A DNA stretch of 64,000 bases, taken from Phytoseiulus persimilis. Lineage: Eukaryota; Arthropoda; Arachnida; Mesostigmata; Phytoseiidae. Below, piece by piece: positions 1,097-63,879 of the stretch. The translations under genes were made by a program, and so were the position numbers. Below the pieces are notes generated by a model. That model was not told the origin of the DNA. It saw nothing but the letters and a program-made list of their open reading frames with translations, and did not search any database. The stretch covers positions 3,844,001 through 3,908,000 of the forward strand of contig CM075102.1 of the NCBI GenBank assembly GCA_037576195.1, written 5' to 3'. Every line of letters starts with the position of its first letter. Positions within the stretch are counted from its first letter, which is position 1.

Positions 1097-2273
1097 GTTT
1101 TCATGCCAGCCATGAAAGGAAAAAAAAGCAGTTGCCGCACAACGAAGCCAACGCCTCCCGCTTGCTGACGAAGATCCGGTAGATTGTTGAAGCAATACAC
1201 GGCCGAATCGCTGACATCGCCGAAACTGTACAACGGTTTTTTCTAGATACACAAGGATCCGGCAGATGGTTCGCACTTTTGGGAGCATCTTGTAGTCGAC
1301 AGCGTTGTGTAGCAGTATGCACCGTTGAGTATATACAGGGTGTGTCCTCTAAGCTGCAACATTTTCGTGGCCTTTCTGTTTTGGGCTGTATTTCGGTCAA
1401 ATTTTATCCGATGTGGGAATTTTTTTTGATCGAAAGCTCTTGAAGAGACGCATCTTTTCGCTCCATTATTTTTGATCATCAGATCAGTGTTGAGTTTTCC
1501 AGAGCCTGTCGAAGTTTTCCTCAATTCAATCCATGGTCCCTGAAAGAACTAACCAGGAAATCGCCGATTCTCAACCGATTTCGGAAATTAAAAAACGGAA
1601 AGATTCCCCTCGAACCCAGCTACAAAACGCTCGCAACAACGGGCGGATCGATTGCGAACCGGAGGAACGGTATTCAATACGAGATACCCCAAAATTGAGC
1701 CTCCCGGACACCCTGCCGACCCCTCCAGTAAAGAACTGCCTGTAACTCCTCAGGGAAGCCGATTTCGGAAATTTCACTGATGGCAAAAGTTTCTTATTTT
1801 GAGCCAAACTACCCGGAAACGAAGTCACCGAGTCAATCCGATAACTTTTTTTTTCCACCTCAAAAGTCACGAGATGAGCGCCCAGTGACCCGTTTTTTAA
1901 TTTCCGAAATCGGTTGAGAATCGGCGATTTCCTGGTTAGTTCTTTCAGGGACCATGGATTGAATTGAGGAAAACTTCGACAGGCTCTGGAAAACTCAACA
2001 CTGATCTGATGATCAAAAATAATGGGGCGAAAAGATGCGTCTCTTCAAGAGCTTTCGATCAAAAAAAAAATTCCCACATCGGATAAAATTTGACCGAAAT
2101 ACAGCCCAAAACAGAAAGGCCACGAAAATGTTGCAGCTTAGAGAACACACCCTGTACAATATTCGGCCGTGTCCTGCTTCAACAATCCACCGGATCCTCG
2201 TCACCAAGCGGGAGGCGCTGGCTCCGTTGTGCGGCAACTGCTCCCTTTCCCCTTTCACGGATGGTATGAAAAC
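1097..2273. repeat. Outer inverted repeat pair (about 110 bp arms) around the mariner-like MITE
   Basis: Positions 1097-1206 are repeated in inverted orientation at about 2160-2273 with roughly 85-90% identity by eye. Shared blocks are GCAGTTGCCGCACAACG, CGCCTCCCGCTTG and GGATTGTTGAAGCA. The right arm abuts the inner element at its TA, while the left arm is separated from it by about 125 bp. The pair may be an older foldback element into which the MITE at 1336-2154 inserted. Confidence 0.6.
1336..2154. mobile_element. Tc1/mariner-like MITE with about 263 bp terminal inverted repeats
   Basis: Left arm 1336-1598 and right arm 1890-2154 are near-perfect inverted copies, starting CAGGGTGTGTCCTCTAAGC and ending with its complement. 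TA dinucleotides flank both ends (1334-1335 and 2155-2156), as expected for the TA target duplication of the Tc1/mariner superfamily. The roughly 290 bp interior has no transposase and only short frames, so this is non-autonomous. High arm identity suggests recent activity or gene conversion between arms. The proposed superfamily rests on the TA flanks and the CAGGGTG end. Confidence 0.75.
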
Positions 2274-3231: not shown

Positions 3232-4274
3232 TTTGACTCAAATCCCATCTCATGCTAAAGTTATGCCTCAATGAGATCGATTCCACGGATTTCAGACCCG
3301 CGTTCAACTCACTGTCTGGTCGATTCCAAAGAATATAGGGCACTTGGGGCATGTATCGAAATTTTTGAAGAGCAGTATGGTTCGGCGCAAGTCCTGTAAA
3401 CTGGATGACGTGTGGGGGTTATAAACGCATCTCTCAGAGCTGCGTGCGAGCCTGAATGCTCTGAAGGGTGGACCATTTTGTGGGGAAAACGGGAAAAATG
3501 TATTTTTTCCATCAAAATGAGGCTAGTAGAACTATTCTCCCGAAAAAATGAATTGGTTTATCGACGGCATCAGCAAGCCCGAGGAATTACACTTGTAAGA
3601 TGTTTTTTCCTAGGAATCGATGCACCTTCTAAACAGGAGATTTGATAATCAGACTAGAGGTGAGGAACATCGATACAGGAATGATAATACCAACCAATAG
3701 AAGTATTGTCGTTATTCAATCGGGAATAACCTCTCCTAAACAGGAGAATCGATAACAGGTCCTTATTGGCGTCTCACTCTGATTGGCGTCTCACTCTGAT
3801 TGGCCGTCTCAGTCTGGAATGCCGGCTCATTCCCGGACATCGTCAGTGGAACGCGGCTGGATGTGAACAAAGGGAAAGCCGCCAGTTCAAACTGGGCGCG
3901 GCTCCTTACACACTCATCCTCCGTTTTTCATTTGATGAGGAAAGTGCATTTTTTGAGGAGTTATGGACGGTTGTTAAAATCGGTCTATAGCTCCCTCACG
4001 AATGGCCCTAAGAAAAGTTACTTGACGGAGAAAAGAATGCGGAATTGTACCAGCTCCCCAACCTTCTCGCCGGTCTGCCATCCATCCAGCCGTTCGGCCG
4101 CAATCATTCTCTTTTTATTATTTTTTCTTGATTTCGCCCCCTTTGGAGAGATTTCTCAGGTTGGTTATACCACCAGAAGTTGCTCCTCTTTACCCAGAAC
4201 TCCCTCGCGAAAATCCAGGAGAATCGGTCCAGCCGTTCAAAAGTTATGATTTTCCGGTGGTTCCGACCGCTGTG
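3232..4274 (-). mobile_element. Old copy of the Transib-like terminal inverted repeat, interrupted by an insertion
   Basis: The sequence follows the 61999-62793 inverted-repeat arm almost end to end. Shared blocks include CGATTCCACGGATTT, AAACTGGATGACGTG, GAAGGGTGGACCATTTTG, AATTGGTTTATCGACGGCA and CGGTCCAGCCGTTCAAAAGT. It ends in CCGCTGTG at 4274, the same terminus as the intact element. The inner end near 3232 is truncated. Many differences from the other copies mark it as old. A 313 bp foreign segment at 3593-3905 interrupts it. The base pattern after 4274 (CGGTG) only partly matches the CGACG flank seen elsewhere. Confidence 0.75.
3593..3905. mobile_element. 313 bp insertion flanked by direct TTACAC repeats
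   Basis: Comparison with uninterrupted copies of the surrounding repeat shows extra sequence exactly here. TTACAC lies on both sides (3587-3592 and 3906-3911), consistent with a 6 bp target duplication. Inside are a two-fold GGCGTCTCACTCTGATT repeat (about 3768-3800) and two copies of CTAAACAGGAGA-like sequence. No inverted termini or coding frame are evident. The segment GTTCAAACTGG near the right end is weakly like a tRNA B box, so a SINE is possible but unproven. Confidence 0.5.
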
Positions 4275-11450: not shown

Positions 11451-11517
11451 CGTCGAGCCCTCTCTCAAAAGCGTGGTAGCCGCCGGCCGCCGCCATAGAG
11501 CGTGTGCCTACGCTAAA

Positions 11518-12133
11518 AATCAACGATTGCGGCTAAACGGCTGGATGGATTTTGAATCGGCGAGGAGGGTTGGGAAGCTGGTGCAATCCCGCACTTTCTT
11601 CCCCGAAGGAAATTCTCCTAGGGCCATTCGTAAGTGAGCTATAGACCGATTTTTGAAACCGCCCATAACTCCTGAAAAAATGCACGTTTTTGATCGAATT
11701 GAAACAGAGGATTCGTGCAATTTCTCGGACCGGCTCATGCCGTCGATGAACCAATCCATTTCTCTGAGCGAATATTCTCAATAGCCTAATTTTGGTGAAA
11801 GAACGCCTTTTCCCGTTTTTCCTCCAAATTGGTCCAACCGGGCACTCGGGCTCGCAAGCGGCTCTGAGGGATGCGTCTAGTACCCCCGCACGTCATCCAG
11901 TTCACAGAATTCGCTCCAAACCATCGTGCTTCTCAAAAAAATTGATACATGTCCCCAAATTCCCCATTATCATCAGAATCGACCAGACAGTGAGTGGACT
12001 GCGAGCCTGAGATCCGAGGAATCGATTTTGTAGAGGCATAACACTAGCATGAGATTTGACTCGAGCCGGAAATTCCGAATTCGCAGCTCCCGACACTATC
12101 TTGGGATCCACGAGACGCCAATGTATACAACGG
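11518..12133 (+). mobile_element. Truncated, diverged Transib-like terminal inverted repeat arm
   Basis: The sequence follows the left arm 60705-61320 in the same orientation. Shared blocks are AAACG(G/A)CTGGAT, CATAACTCCT(C)GAAAAATGCAC, ATGCCGTCGAT(A)AACCAAT, CGCACGTCATCCAGTT and a closing GGGATCCACG. Both outer and inner ends are lost, including the CACAGCG terminus. Divergence is high, so this is an old fragment. Confidence 0.7.
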
Positions 12134-12589
12134 CGCCCACGCGGTTCCCCAACGCGGGCTCAGTGAACTTCACAAGTGCACCGAGTGATAGTGACGGAAC
12201 CTGACAGTTTTCAACCTCCAATATTAAACGTTGTTCACTGCTCTACTACTTCTGACAAGATGAGAACCTTCCAACTTTTGATCACCAATCGAGATCTGAT
12301 GGATATCATCGTTTCGAGAGGGCACGATCTCGAGCTCATCATGAGAGAAGTCCAGAACCGATACCCAATCATAATCACGAAGACTTCAAAGAGTTGAGGG
12401 GACACATGAGCCAGTACGTCTTGCCGAACTTCGAAAGGATGTGGGAAAGCGTGTCTCGCTCGAGAACCTAAGGATGTAGCCGGGTATGTGCCCCAACTCG
12501 ACGGATTCTCCTAAAAACGGCAGGATCGTGTTCCCTATGTGAAAAAAACAGATTCCTGAAGTTTTCAGCCTTTTCGGTTACCCAGATCC
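12134..12589. other. No supported gene
   Basis: A 73-codon plus-strand frame (12176-12397) carries a coherent segment (MRTFQLLITNRDLMDIIVSR) but matches nothing I know. It could be a remnant exon; nothing else is visible here. Confidence 0.25.
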
Positions 12590-44611: not shown

Positions 44612-46870
44612 TTAGCACGAGTGACTCCGGGCGTCTTGGGGCCAGCTTTCATCATTAGGGGCTGCGGGGAGTCGCTGCAGTGGGGCGACGAAAGCAGAGA
44701 GTGCCCCGCCCGTCCTGGAGGCTATCGCTGAAGTAAACTTCGGAACGGCCCTCCATGCACAACGATCAGCGCAGAGTTCGGCGGTAATCGCGGTGGAGGT
44801 GAGAGGGAGCGGAATACCAAGCAAGGAAACCAGGTGGGAGCGAAGGTCCGAGAGTGCTGGACACTCTTCGTATGTGTGAGCCGCACTGGTAACTGGCGCG
44901 ATTCCGGAAGGGTGAATGAGCATATGACGAGGCACATGTTGAAGGGGACCTCGCCGATGGTATGGGGATAGCTCAGGAATGAGCCTTGACCTGCGAGGTA
45001 TTGCGCCAGCGGTTAGCTGGAGTTTCCATGAGAGACTTGAAGCCTTGCTGGGATAGAAGATCCCGTCCAGCAGCCCGGACATCCCTTCGCGATAGATCCC
45101 CATCTAGCCTGCCACTCTGATACCAATTCCTCCCGGGAGATGAACTCTGAGGTGAATTCTGAGCGAAAGCTCTCTGATCCGCAGCTCGTGAGAGAGCGAA
45201 TCTGGAGTGCCGCCGTCGACACCGTACGGTTGACTCCGGCCACCCTGATGGCCGTGGTTCGCTGAGTTTCCTCGAGGATCCGTCCGACACAGTCATTTGA
45301 TTGTCTGCGAATCGTAGCTGCAAAGGGAATAATCCTGTCGACGACGCAAAGCGGTCGGGATTGTCGGGAAATTATAACTTTCGAACGGCTGGACCGATTT
45401 TTCTGAATTTTCGCGAGCGAGTTTTGAGTCCAGAGGAGCAACTTTTGAGCACATAACCAACTTCAAAACTCCCTCCAGGGGGGGCAAAATCGAAAGAAAA
45501 AAATGGAAAATTCACTATTCCGGCCAAACGACTGGATGGATTTGAAATCGGCGGGAAGGGTCGAAAAGCTGGTGCGATCCCGCATTTTTTTCCCATGAAA
45601 AAAATTTTCAACGGGCCCTTCGTAAGTTAGGTATAGACCGATTTTGAAAAATGCCCGTAACTCCTCGAAAAATGCACTTTTTTCATCGGATAAAAAGCGG
45701 AGGATGCGTGCAATTTATCGGGCTAGCTTATGCAGTCGATAAACCAATCATTTTTCCTGGGCAAATCGCTGTTATAACCTCATTTTGGTGAAAAAAAATT
45801 GCTGTTCTTCGTTACTTCCTGTGGGAGCTATTGCCGATATTGGCGCCGCGTGGATCCCAAAATGGTGGGAGGCGGCAACCTTGGGACTTTCGGCTCGAAT
45901 CCGATCTCATGCTAGTGTCATGACTCAATAAAATCGATTCCACGGATTTTAGACTCGTGGTCAAACTGACCGTTTGGTCGATTTCGACGAAAACAGGGCA
46001 CTTGCGGGCATATATCGAAATTCGTGAAAACAACAATGGTTTGGCGCAAACTCTGTAAGCTGGATGACGTGCGGGGATACCAGACGCACCTCTCGGAGCC
46101 GCGTGCGAGCTTGGGTGCTTTGAAGGGTGGACCATTTTGGAGAAGAAAACTAAAAAAATGCGTTTTTTAACCTAGATGAGGTTATAACAGCGATTCGCCC
46201 AGGAAAAGTAATTGGTTTATCGACGGCATCAGGCATTGCACGCATCCTTCGTTTTTTATCCGATGATTCAAAAATCGGTCCAACGTCCCAAACGAAGGGC
46301 CCGTTGAAAATTTTTCTCATGGGAAACAATATGCGGAATCGCACCACCTTTCCGAACCTTCTCGCCGATCTTAAATGCATCCAGTCGTTTGGCCGGTTCC
46401 ATTAGTTCCATTTTTTTTTTCGATTTTGCTCCCTTCGGAGAGAGTTTTGAAGTTGGTTATATACTCGAAAAATGCTCCTCTGGACTCAGAACTCGCTTGC
46501 GAAAATTCAGGAACATCGGTCCAGCCGTTCAAAAGTTATGATTCTCCGACAATCCCGACCGCTGTGCGACGGGAGTCAGACGCCCCTGTGACGCGGGAAA
46601 GGATCCTCGCGATTGCCATGGCCATTTTAGGGCCTTCGCAGCAGCAAGAGTGATATGTGCTCTGCTGAAGAGGCTGTCGTCGAGGATGGAGCCGAGGTAC
46701 CGATAAGTCGGTCTGGTGGGAGTCCGGCAGCCGTTAAGCATTATCGGGACATCGTGAGGGCATTTCCCGTTGAGGAAAGCTGTCCTGACTTCGCAGGTGA
46801 CATGACAAGACCTCGAGGCTGCATGACCATGGCCGGTGATTCATTGATGCCCGTGTGAAGGATGAAGGGG
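44612..46870 (-). pseudogene. LINE ORF2 carboxy-terminal part, split by a Transib-like element
   Basis: Minus-strand coding runs from about 46870 (VRTAFLNGKCPHDVP, YRYLGSILDDSLFSRAHI, IARILSRVTGASDS) to 46567, resumes at 45346 (VAGVNRTVSTAALQI) and continues to 44612 (AAHTYEECPALSDLRSHLV). These are segments after the reverse transcriptase core of a jockey/R1-like LINE: YLG...D, the AYRTVSTAAL motif, and a zinc-knuckle region before ECPAL. The element at 45347-46566 sits exactly between SDSR and R, and the reading continues across it. Frame shifts are present, so it is dead. Confidence 0.7.
45347..46566. mobile_element. Non-autonomous Transib-like foldback element, 1220 bp, CGACG target duplication
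   Basis: The left end CAAAGCGGTCGGGATTGTCG begins at 45347 and the right end CCGACCGCTGTG closes at 46566. CGACG flanks both sides (45342-45346 and 46567-46571). The left arm (about 455 bp) is the outer part of the long inverted repeat and the right arm (about 755 bp) is nearly the full repeat. The inner left arm and any transposase are deleted, so the arms meet near 45805. It can fold into a hairpin of more than 400 bp. The first five bases after the TSD are CAAAG against CACAG in the intact element. Confidence 0.8.
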
Positions 46871-60297: not shown

Positions 60298-60430
60298 ATG
60301 GTTCAAATTTAATCCTGATACGAATTGAATCCTCTTTTTACCACATAAGAAATTTTTGTTGTCGGCCGGGGATCGAACCCGTGATTGCTAGCTCAGCGTG
60401 GCACCCATTATTCAGATACTCTAGTTTCCT
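60298..60430 (-). mobile_element. tRNA-derived SINE-like sequence
   Basis: On the minus strand GGGTGCCACGCTGAGCTAGC is followed by ATCACGGGTTCGATCCCCGG, a tRNA T-arm with a good polymerase III B box (GGTTCGATCC). A-rich sequence then follows (ACAACAAAAATTTCTTATG). A full A box and cloverleaf are not recognisable, so this is not a functional tRNA gene. The layout fits a SINE or a tRNA-like LINE tail. Confidence 0.4.
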
Positions 60431-60538
60431 GGAACTTGCATCAATCAGCCCAAAGATAAGCCCTCAGTGTACGTCGGGGATCCCGGGTCCCCCGCCAACT
60501 CGGCTCCAGCCAGCGGCTCACCGTGCCCAGCACCGACG

Positions 60539-61335
60539 CACAGCGGTCGGGATTGTCGGAAAATCATAACTTTTGAACGGCTGAAACGATTTTCCTGAAT
60601 TTTCGCGAGCGAGTTCTGAGTCCAGAGGAGCGACGTTTGAGCATATAACCAACTTCCAAACTCTCTCCAAAGGGGGCAAAATGGAAAAAAAAAAAGGGAA
60701 ATTCACGAATCCGGCCAAACGACTGGATTGATCTAAAATCGGCGAGAAGGGTCGGAAAGCTGCGGCGCTTCCGCATTTTTTTCCCCACGAGGAAAATTTT
60801 CAACGGCCCTTTCGTGAGGGAGGAATATACCTATTTTTAAAAATGCCCATAACTCCTCGAAAAATGCACTTTTTTCATCGGATAAAGAACGGAGGACGCG
60901 CGCAATTTTTCGGGCTAGGTGATGCCGTCGATAAACCAATTACTTTTTCTCGGCCTCATTGTTATGACCTCATTTTGGTGAAAAAACGCATTTTTTTTTG
61001 GTTGTTTCCTCCAAAATGGTCCACCCTTCAACGCACCCAGGCTCGCACGCGGCTCTGAGGGGTGCGTCTGGTATCCCCGCACGTCATCCAGTTTACAAAG
61101 TTTGCGCCAAACCATTGTGGTTTTCAAAAATTTCGATATATGCCCCCAAGTGCCCTATTTTCGTCGAAATCGACCAAACGGCCAGTTTGACCACGAGTCT
61201 AAAATCCGTGGAATCGATTTTATTGAGTCATAAGACCAGCATGAGATCGGACTCGAGCCAACAGTTTCAAATTTGCCGCTTCCCACCATTTTGGGATCCA
61301 CGCGGCGCCAATATAGGCAATAGCTTCCATAGGAA
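60539..61335 (+). repeat. Left long terminal inverted repeat of the Transib-like element
   Basis: This 797 bp arm runs from CACAGCGG to TTCCATAGGAA. Relatives of parts of it occur at 3232-4274, 11518-12133 and 45347-46566. After the CACAGCG heptamer, 12 bases separate it from GGAAAATCA, whose A-run coincides with that of a RAG nonamer. Confidence 0.85.
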
Positions 61336-61339
61336 TCTC

Positions 61340-61993
61340 ATGGAGTGCCTTGTCAATATCGCATGTAACCAGGACTTCAGAAAATGGCGTTGCGAAAAGA
61401 AGAATGCAGCGCAACGGACCAAGCGCTTGCGGGAAATTCAGGATGAGTTCAGGAAAGAACTGGGTTTTATTGTTTCCGTTGTTCGACCGGGCGGCGGCAC
61501 CAGCAATGACGGCAACACGGCTCGCAAGTTCTTGAGAAATCATGGTTTGACGGCTATGATAACCGGCTTAGACCCAGAGTTGGTCTATAGGCTCCACATC
61601 ATCTTGGAAGCAATCAACTCTCGCCACCAGTTGAACGGTGCGGCGTTCGGCGAGTACTGCCACGTCACAGCGAATATTTTCGTTACGCGCTATCCGTGGT
61701 ATTACATGCCTGTGACAGTGCACAAGGTACTGATTCACGGCCAGGCAATCGTGGAGAATAGCACCCAACCCATAGGTGCTCTCAGTGAAGAAGCTCAGAA
61801 AGCATTGAACAAGCTCTTCAAGAACTTCCGAGAAAATTTCTCGTTCAAGGACGTCCGTGAGAACGTGAATCGCGATGTGATGCAAAGGTTGATGGTTCAT
61901 GCGGATCCCCTCGTGAACAGTTACCGGAAGGATCTCCCCTTGAGTGATCTTGACATCCTGGATGATGTGAGGAAACTTCTGAGTGCCGAGTGA
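61340..61993 (+). CDS. Transib/RAG1-like transposase, carboxy-terminal fragment
   Basis: From ATG 61340, just inside the left inverted repeat, 217 residues run to TGA 61991. Landmarks are RLREIQDEFRKELGFIV (31-47), SNDGNTARKFL (55-65), YPWYYMPVTVHKVLIHG (118-134) and IGALSEEAQKALNKLFKNFR (145-164). The same order and wording occur in the carboxy catalytic region of Transib transposases and RAG1 (GNFARKL, FHKTLAH, IGAWAS...NKLFRRFR). The first two catalytic acids would lie in a missing amino half. Anchoring on NKLF, the third catalytic acid (Glu962 of mouse RAG1) corresponds to Lys154 here, encoded AAA at 61799. So this copy looks catalytically dead. It may be an internally deleted relic or an expressed carboxy fragment. 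Frame extension upstream reads only the repeat. Confidence 0.7.
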   Translation: MECLVNIACNQDFRKWRCEKKNAAQRTKRLREIQDEFRKELGFIVSVVRPGGGTSNDGNTARKFLRNHGLTAMITGLDPELVYRLHIILEAINSRHQLNGAAFGEYCHVTANIFVTRYPWYYMPVTVHKVLIHGQAIVENSTQPIGALSEEAQKALNKLFKNFRENFSFKDVRENVNRDVMQRLMVHADPLVNSYRKDLPLSDLDILDDVRKLLSAE

Positions 61994-61998
61994 TGTAC

Positions 61999-62793
61999 TT
62001 CCTATGGAAGCTATTGCCTATATTGGCGCCGCGTGGATCCCAAAATGGTGGGAAGCGGCAAATTTGAAACGGTTGGCTCGAGTCCGATCTCATGCTGCTG
62101 TTATGACTCAATGAAATCGATTCCACGGATTTTAGACTCGTGGTCAAACTGACCGTTTGGTCGATTTCGACGAAAATAGGGCACTTGGGGGCACATATCG
62201 AAATTTTTGAAAACCACAATGGTTTGGCGCAAACTTTGTAAACTGGATGACGTGCGGGGATACCAGACGCACCCCCCAGAGCCGCGTGCGAGCCTGGGTG
62301 CTTTGAAGGGTGGACCATTTTGGAGGAAAAACCAAAAAAAATGCGTTTTTTCACCAAAATGAGGTCATAACAGCGATTTGCCGAGAAAAAGTAATTGGTT
62401 TATCGACGGCAACAGCTAGCCCGAGAAATTGCGCGCATCCTCCGTTTTTTATCCGGTGGAAAAAGTGCATTTCTCGAGGGGTTATTGGGATTTTTAAAAA
62501 TCGGTCCAAACCTCCCTTATGAAGGGCCCGTTGAAGATTTTCCTCATGGGAAAAACATGCGGAATCGCATCAGCTTTCCGACCCTTCTCGCCGATTCTAG
62601 ATCAATCCAGTCGTTTGGCCGGAATCGTGAATTTTGCATTTTTTTTTCAATTTTGCCCCCTCCGGAGAGAGTTTGGAAGTTGGTTATATGCTCAAAAGAT
62701 GCTCCTCTGGACTCAGAACTCGCTCGCGAATATTCAGGAAAATCGGTCCAGCCGTTCAAAAGTTATGATTTTCCGACAATCCCGACCGCTGTG
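61999..62793 (-). repeat. Right long terminal inverted repeat of the Transib-like element
   Basis: This 795 bp arm begins 6 bp after the transposase stop codon and ends CCGCTGTG. It is the inverted counterpart of 60539-61335, with scattered substitutions and small run-length differences. Confidence 0.85.
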
Positions 62794-63879
62794 CGACGCC
62801 GCGTTGCCCCGCTGAACATTCAAGGACAGGCGCTGAGCCAAGAAGCGCCCCAGTCTTTTGTCTCCCGTTGCCCGCTCGAGGGCCTTCCCAACCTGATCGA
62901 TCAGGGTCCTGGTGCTGGAGCCGGGACCACTTATGGTCACGAATGCAAACGGCGAGAAGTGGGGCCGCTTGCCAACGCGGCATACTTGTTGATTTCCGCC
63001 GCCTCCGCCCTCGCAACGGCGGGCCCTGCGCGGGACGCACCGGGACCGACCAGGGAAGGGCTCAGAGAGTCGGTCAACGTTGAATCCCACACGAGGGCCC
63101 TCCCCCTGGAGAATGGAATGAGCGTGAGGCCGTCAGGCCACCTTCCGTCGTCGGGCATGAGACCAGAGGATTCCAGCATGCAGGGTATCCCGGCTGAACG
63201 AAGAGCCCATCCGAGGGTGTCGTTGAGAGCAGCGTGACGCGGTCGACGACTAGCCGCTGGGGCGCAAGACAGGCCGTGACGAGCGAGGTAACCAACAGGC
63301 TCCCCACATGCGCACCGATGCGGCTCAACCAGGTGAGCACCCAATAGGATTCCGAGGCAAATCCTGACAGAACGGTCATCGAGCTTCGTACCTCGGCAGT
63401 CCGCTGGGATCGTGTATAGCCAGTCACTAGCCCCCGGCAAAGAGCGGATAACTTCGCGGAGAGAGCATCTCGTCTTGCGATGAAAGACGCCCAGGCCTCG
63501 GGACGGAGTAGTTCTCGCACTAGGTCGGGAACGCCGATCATGGAGGAGACGGCGGTCGGTCCCGCAAGACTCACCACGGTATGAGGCCGAGGCCACCCTT
63601 CGAGGCCATCCTTCGAGATGAGCCTGGGAACGTTCCCGGGCCAGGAGCCGAAGGCTGAGCAGAGACACGAGAGACTCAATGAGCTGGTCATCCCATGGTT
63701 GCATCAAGCCGCCAAAGTCCGAACAATCTGTGCTTCTAACCACATGCTGAATGCGACAGGCCGAGAAGGATGACCGGAGCAAGAAAAGGCCCTTGTGAGC
63801 GCCCACCAACGGGAGACGCTCCCGCATAGCCCAGACTCTCTCCGTCAGCATACTGGAAGACTCCGGCAGAGCGTCGGAT

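Follow-up and report, generated by a model that had tools for sequence, protein, structure and literature searches.

A Transib element with long inverted arms around half a transposase gene in Phytoseiulus persimilis

Introduction

Transib is the transposon group related to RAG1, the enzyme that cuts antibody genes. Drosophila Foldback (FB) elements, which are not Transibs, have a small middle between long inverted arms, vary in length and occur also as arms alone; the arms are made of tandem repeats. A 64,000-nucleotide stretch of Phytoseiulus persimilis DNA (the window) contains an element with features of both, which raises the question of how a Transib acquired arms that make up most of its length, and what the half-transposase gene between them is for, if anything. 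The original prediction, made from the letters alone, described a RAG1/Transib-like transposon whose ends resemble V(D)J signals and have grown into foldback-type repeats, and it knew of no description of such a family.

Two reports give short terminal inverted repeats (TIRs) for Transib, 13 bp in TransibSU and 13-57 bp in Helicoverpa Transib MITEs (PMC4411706, PMC9033116). HzTransib of Helicoverpa zea measures 3,518 bp, has a deduced protein of 489 aa and, according to a 2007 paper, "has long TIRs" (PMC1852546), so short TIRs are usual in Transib without being defining. For Galileo, a Drosophila element of the P superfamily, the authors of PMC3573991 propose that TIRs are extended when one TIR is copied in the other's place over a longer tract.

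Results

Architecture of the element

The window contains a 2,255-bp insertion at 60539-62793 with CGACG on either side, and the predicted coordinates, duplication and repeat lengths are exact (Table 1). Its two inverted arms are 92.9% identical by blastn and account for 1,592 of the 2,255 bp, with a 663-bp middle between them. The final 26 bases are the same at both termini, and each reads CACAGCGGTCGGGATTGTCGGAAAAT, as expected from the predicted CACAGCG... ends. Arms-only copies of the same family (hereafter family 1) occur as well (winB, L039 and L047; Table 1 gives the arms-only sibling in the window), so the foldback-type feature of long arms that form most of an element is present. The predicted RNA fold of the arms-only sibling is a single long hairpin, a prediction that at such a length comes without shuffled controls. 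A tandem-repeat search of the arms returned just one weak 23-base array (score 32), and this near absence of tandem repeats rules out arms built like those of FB.

Table 1. Coordinates of the features of the window element, its arms-only sibling and copies of the second family
Feature	Position	Strand	Basis or remark
Left target-site duplication CGACG	60534..60538	.	One copy present in empty sites
Upstream inverted arm, 797 bp, read as recent inverted copy of 3' arm	60539..61335	+	93.1% match to L057 3' arm
Left terminus CACAGCGGTCGGGATTGTCGGAAAAT	60539..60564	+	Heptamer 6/7 to RSS consensus
Internal junction, precise to a few bases	61332..61338	.	Inverted upstream arm (REF57 about 2106) joins gene (REF57 1434)
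217-codon frame and stop, C-terminal half of Transib transposase	61340..61993	+	Similar to HzTransib residues 264-463
Segment about GALSEEAQKALNKLFKNFR	61778..61840	+	Alignment with catalytic-Glu segment in RAG1/Transib
Downstream inverted arm, 795 bp, natural 3' arm	61999..62793	-	Inverted-repeat comparison
Right terminus, 26 bp same as left	62768..62793	-	Copies' ends compared
Right target-site duplication CGACG	62794..62798	.	Copies' ends compared
Arms-only sibling, 1,220 bp, target-site duplication CGACG, without transposase core	45347..46566	.	Arm match and end comparison
Family 2 copies	L035:910-2703, L038:914-2699, L072:230-2023, others

The encoded transposase fragment and its missing half

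A phmmer search of PDB with the frame of the window element matched HzTransib (6pqn) at E = 4.1e-50 over residues 264-463, and the predicted RAG1/Transib similarity of this region is thereby established for Transib. The next match was RAG1L of lancelet (6b40, E = 3.1e-4); vertebrate RAG1 chains at E 0.2-1.1 were at the level of noise, where an unrelated PrgA chain also lay (0.21), and the Pfam RAG1 model gave 14.3 bits, below its cut-off of 25. Translation confirmed that the predicted motifs GNTARKF, VHKVLIHG and NKLFKNFR are all in the frame. We take the catalytic Glu to lie in the 61778-61840 segment, and likewise presume the positions of the two Asp motifs; the fragment lacks both catalytic Asp residues and keeps the Glu segment alone, so the DDE triad is incomplete and we file the window copy as a non-autonomous derivative, not a working Transib. 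As a kind of element, such a derivative is ordinary.

The prediction had suggested looking for a copy with the amino half. Using the amino half of another Transib (L031) as query, we obtained a match at C4:5156551-5157255, within a family-1 copy. The near-full-length relative L057 (with L059) has a 403-aa frame similar to HzTransib residues 8-282, including both Asp motifs (E = 5.3e-55), and none of the other copies among 10 matches from 9 candidates retains the amino region in full. Family 1 thus belongs to the Transib superfamily by transposase homology in both the retained half and, through L057, the amino half. In Pfam, the amino frame of L057 matched no family at E up to 1, so its assignment to Transib rests on the PDB search.

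The suggested copy therefore exists but is broken: its C-terminal half lies in a different frame after a 7-base insertion, there is one more stop, and the 5' arm is interrupted by foreign sequence. A comparison of the window arm with C4:5160500-5164500 (L085), where we sought the outer L057 5' arm past the foreign insertion, gave no match. The foreign sequence itself (L059, C4:5157500-5160700) has a weak, sub-threshold match to a DDE-endonuclease helix-turn-helix. Having lost half of its enzyme gene, the window element probably depends for its movement on the enzyme made by a complete relative; genome searches found no intact family-1 transposase, so we infer this mobilisation in trans.

Copies, insertion sites and termini

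We searched the 181-Mb genome (127 contigs) with several parts of the element and retrieved 20 stretches for copy comparison. Of 68 candidate places for the terminal 162 bases, 40 were scored. The encoded fragment had 81 matches, both close and remote, and its DNA had 33; the ends, arms and core of the window element were all found again at many genomic places. The element sits within a dispersed host repeat (flanks 60389-60538 and 62794-62948). When the flanks were joined at a single CGACG, host-repeat matches scored at 40 places of 81 candidates; of these, 37 continue across the joint, two are the window copy's own flanks, and the last starts where the flanks meet. All three empty sites that we read by letter align through the joint without a gap over 279 bases. 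The window element is a real and fairly young mobile element, and we attribute its open frame to this youth, not to selection.

Exact 5-bp duplications flank 13 of the 15 copies with both ends examined (two of them from the window): CGACG in six, CGTCG in two, and CATCG, CGCCG, CGTCA, GCCCG and CGGTG in one each. In the two remaining copies, the duplication matches at four of five bases (L053) or the right end is damaged (L052). Left termini begin CACAG in 14 of the 15, with CAAAG in winB, and right termini finish CTGTG in all except the damaged L052. Seven further loci showed one end alone, outside the duplication count, and each of the seven starts CACAGCGG. The expectation that genomic copies would share these ends and a 5-bp duplication is borne out, and family 1 has the 5-bp GC-rich target-site duplications and CAC-starting termini of Transib. 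It departs from the usual short TIRs, with arms of about 797 bp vs 37-44 bp in ordinary Transibs of this genome: L028 has a 44-bp TIR pair with CGGCG on both sides, and L031 has a 37-bp pair, a degraded 5' terminus and flanks without a matching duplication. We also looked for TIRs in the ordinary Transib L032 and found none.

The predicted likeness of the termini to V(D)J signals reaches no further than the heptamer and fails for the nonamer. Family-1 ends (CACAGCG) match the RSS heptamer CACAGTG at six of seven positions and family-2 ends (see below) at seven of seven. Matches to the RSS nonamer ACAAAAACC in family-1 ends reach 5/9 at 12 bp, no better than at 11 or 17, and 2/9 at 23 bp; in family 2 they reach at most 4/9. 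On these spacing scores we reject a V(D)J-like nonamer in both families. Two ordinary Transibs have a 6/9 nonamer match exactly at 23 bp, L031 at its 3' end and L028 at its 5' end; the L031 3' terminus (near locus position 1090) reads CACAGTG, a 23-bp spacer, then ACAAAATTA.

A common founder and a frame without selection

We compared internal junctions using as reference the reverse complement of C4:5155006-5157905, from L057 (REF57), leaving out the partial loci L049, L054, L056 and L058 and judging junction homology by eye only. Twelve of the 21 loci compared have the junction REF57 2100-2106(-)/1434(+), and this one internal junction indicates one founder for those twelve copies. A second junction, REF57 1871(-)/1219(+), occurs in L055, L040 and L022. 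The copies of the first kind (the 2,250-bp type) may have arisen when an L055-type copy lost about 450 bp, or in a separate event; the core tree is unrooted, with weak support around L057.

Fifteen cores were aligned, with the partial rows L041, L025 and L026 omitted from the selection test. The 126 single-copy changes comprise 27 synonymous, 95 non-synonymous and 4 stop-making changes, where random placement expects 29.3, 92.7 and 3.9, respectively; one of the stop-making changes (in L040) makes no real stop within its own codon. The 23 shared changes divide into 5 synonymous and 18 non-synonymous (expected 5.4 and 16.9). The resulting dN/dS-like ratios are 1.1 for single-copy and 1.15 for shared changes, and three of the 15 cores have real in-frame stops and four have frameshifting indels. 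The frame evolves neutrally, without purifying selection, and the half-transposase gene is therefore a passenger.

The single-copy core changes are unevenly divided on the coding strand, with A>G 27 vs T>C 11 and, outside CpG, G>A 16 vs C>T 7, as raw counts uncorrected for base composition.

Origin of the arms

Relatives that keep the 5' region have long but imperfect arms (77-87%). What survives of the L057 5' arm, 111 bases, resembles the 3' arm of that copy at 83.6%; in the older copy L061, the 5' arm is 87% like the L057 3' arm and 12-13% away from all arms; and the 5' fragment of a relative at window positions 11516-12354 has a natural 5' arm (77%), after which comes the 5' region that precedes the transposase core. 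The long imperfect arms of the latter two indicate that such arms are natural in family 1 and, as the relatives' arms are already long, that the window copy's own lineage did not build its arms from a 40-bp TIR.

The upstream and downstream arm consensus sequences of the 2,250-bp type differ at 9 sites (11 copies), and the upstream arm tracks the 3' arm past the natural homology edge, as far as some 5 bases before the stop codon. The upstream arm of L055, L040 and L022 contains inverted transposase codons 145-220 (145-204 in the L022 protein match), and the older L063 has a different arrangement, with REF57 from 1890 onward in both arms. From these sequence comparisons we conclude that an inverted copy made from the 3' end is likely to have taken the place of the 5' arm, an argument that rests on the few natural 5' ends known (the L057 piece, L061 and the window fragment). 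Such replacement probably happened more than once. The claim that the ends had grown into foldback-type repeats is upheld in a more specific form, in which the upstream arm appears to have been copied recently, in inverted orientation, from the 3' arm, extending into transposase codons in three copies; the already long arms of the relatives weigh against the claim as first put.

The arms also appear to exchange sequence. Rare alleles common to both arms of one copy number 15, vs 6.8 in cross-copy pairings (11 copies), and the share of incompatible site pairs is 42% and 31% for the outer parts of the arms, 18% and 33% for the inner parts and 12% for the core (10 copies). The arms differ by 5.16% within a copy vs 5.69% between copies, a value that 3 of 1,000 random pairings matched or undercut (12 copies); this slightly greater likeness within copies is partly due to subfamily structure. 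Divergence is 4.9 and 4.6% in the arms vs 2.8% in the core (10 copies, L045 left out). One founder should give equal divergence of arms and core. The excess calls for a further cause, either conversion with older foldback copies or a higher mutation rate in the arms, and arm exchange may explain it.

A second foldback family

The genome contains a second Transib family (family 2) with a protein 38-43% identical to that of family 1 and 581-bp arms around a C-terminal core (Table 1). Within L035 and within L038 the arms are about 97% identical. The core of the longer copies measures 633 bp and contains the C-terminal portion of a Transib gene; in others it is shorter or interrupted. Family-2 copies end in CACAGTGGGCG..., with perfect CACAGTG termini, and among the 14 loci read, nine of the ten copies with both ends have 5-bp duplications (the exception is L077). 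An internal stop is common to four of the five cores translated, which indicates that family 2 too spread without its frame. In L037, L079 and L080, part of the 3' side of the core reappears in inverted orientation on the opposite side. The arms of family 2 fit the origin proposed for those of family 1; none of the loci read has a natural family-2 5' end, so we infer this shared origin.

Discussion

The window element was inserted into a host repeat with a 5-bp duplication; its type comprises twelve copies from one founder, and it has a neutral frame, no amino half and arms of the 3' type. Very probably, it is a non-autonomous foldback-type Transib in which an inverted duplicate of the 3' end has taken the place of the 5' end and which is mobilised in trans. 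We propose that an ancestor had long imperfect arms, that its 5' arm would have been broken or left incomplete during gap repair, and that the broken end would have invaded the homologous 3' arm and copied it, inverted, beyond the edge of homology. Copying would have reached nearly to the gene end (the 2,250-bp type) or about 230 bp into the gene (the L055 type), and the copied tract would then have been joined to the middle of the gene, yielding a product with two 3' ends and no amino half. A full-length Transib transposase could act in trans at its terminal CACAGCG... sites, by excision and reinsertion, and the arms would later exchange sequence with each other by conversion.

A simpler account is a plain internal deletion, in which an autonomous element always had near-identical TIRs of about 800 bp and lost its middle, with no inverted copying of the 3' end. 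The long arms at the natural 5' ends of L061 and window 11516-12354 speak for it, as do the nearness of the 2,250-type inner arm edge (REF57 about 2106) to the natural homology edge (about 2117) and the "long TIRs" reported for HzTransib (PMC1852546). Nevertheless, we regard it as improbable, given that the L057 5'-arm piece is 16% off its own 3' arm vs 9 consensus sites between the 2,250-type arms, that the likeness of the upstream arm to the 3' arm continues outside the natural homology until about 5 bases short of the stop codon, and that no natural 5' arm would hold the transposase codons found in the upstream arm of L055, L040 and L022.

Replacement of the 5' end also bears on whether the half-transposase is a working product, a repressor or trans-acting partner, whose usefulness kept the C-terminal half in two Transib families; truncated P-element products are a model for such functional half-proteins. 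The frame is indeed stop-free in 10 of 11 full-length protein matches (residues 2-219 or more), but duplication of the 3' end retains the C-terminal half even without selection, the fragment lacks both catalytic Asp residues, and family 2 spread with an internal stop in most translated cores. With dN/dS-like ratios slightly above one, stop-making changes at the expected number and disabled cores among the copies, we reject a functional half-protein on the neutral evolution of the frame and consider this account very unlikely. An open frame similar to RAG1/Transib might be read as a host-domesticated RAG1-like gene or a segmental duplication and not a transposon, a reading with practically no chance of being right: it is refuted by 5-bp duplications and empty target sites, the flanks differ, and the frame evolves neutrally.

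Several known systems resemble the replaced-end element in part. Like HzTransib, family 1 has a homologous transposase in both halves (the amino half through L057) and a 5-bp duplication, and HzTransib, too, is said to have "long TIRs" (PMC1852546). Unlike HzTransib, the window element keeps the C-terminal half only, and both of its arms match the 3' end. With Galileo (PMC3573991), it shares long, length-variable TIRs, two-TIR derivatives, arm conversion, recruitment of internal sequence into the TIR and the mechanism proposed for that growth, whereas Galileo has 7-bp duplications, belongs to another superfamily and owes part of its TIR growth to tandem repeats, which are nearly absent from the window element. 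The family also resembles FB in its long arms around a small middle, arms-only copies and variable length, and differs from it in being a Transib with arms that lack a tandem-repeat build.

The original prediction knew of no description of such a family, but parts of the picture are already in print: the "long TIRs" of HzTransib (PMC1852546) and, for Galileo, the mechanism of growth (PMC3573991). In the open-licence literature, we found nothing pairing "Transib" with "long terminal inverted repeats"; Repbase lies outside that scope, and the family may already be named there. A search combining Transib, terminal inverted repeats and foldback gave, among the matches listed, Transib in a reference list only. 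Galileo-type foldback or TIR growth is now seen stepwise in the RAG1-related superfamily, with the architecture in two families of one genome.

PMC7204232 and PMC4411706 describe CAC-starting ends, 5-bp duplications and a RAG1-type catalytic core in RAG1/RAG2, ProtoRAG and RAGL, and family 1 has all three. It differs from them in its symmetric ends without a nonamer, its weak similarity to RAG1L (E = 3e-4) and its noise-level similarity to vertebrate RAG1. On inspection of the listed frames we noticed no RAG2-like gene, though the 5' end of L057 is lost. It is conceivable, though we think it rather unlikely, that Transib transposases here spread double-3'-end elements better than natural unlike-ended ones, with replacement recurrent in family 1 (the L055-type junction, L063), perhaps also in family 2, and the double-3'-end elements having multiplied. 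If so, end symmetry, not RAG 12/23-type asymmetry, would be the favoured substrate in this RAG1-related enzyme group. The repeated movement of natural equal-ended elements is relevant to the question of when unlike ends became a requirement in the RAG lineage.

A solo 3' arm also lies in the window at 3233-4274. It comes from a 76-79% similar relative, is split by about 330 bp and ends GACCGCTGTG beside CGGTG.
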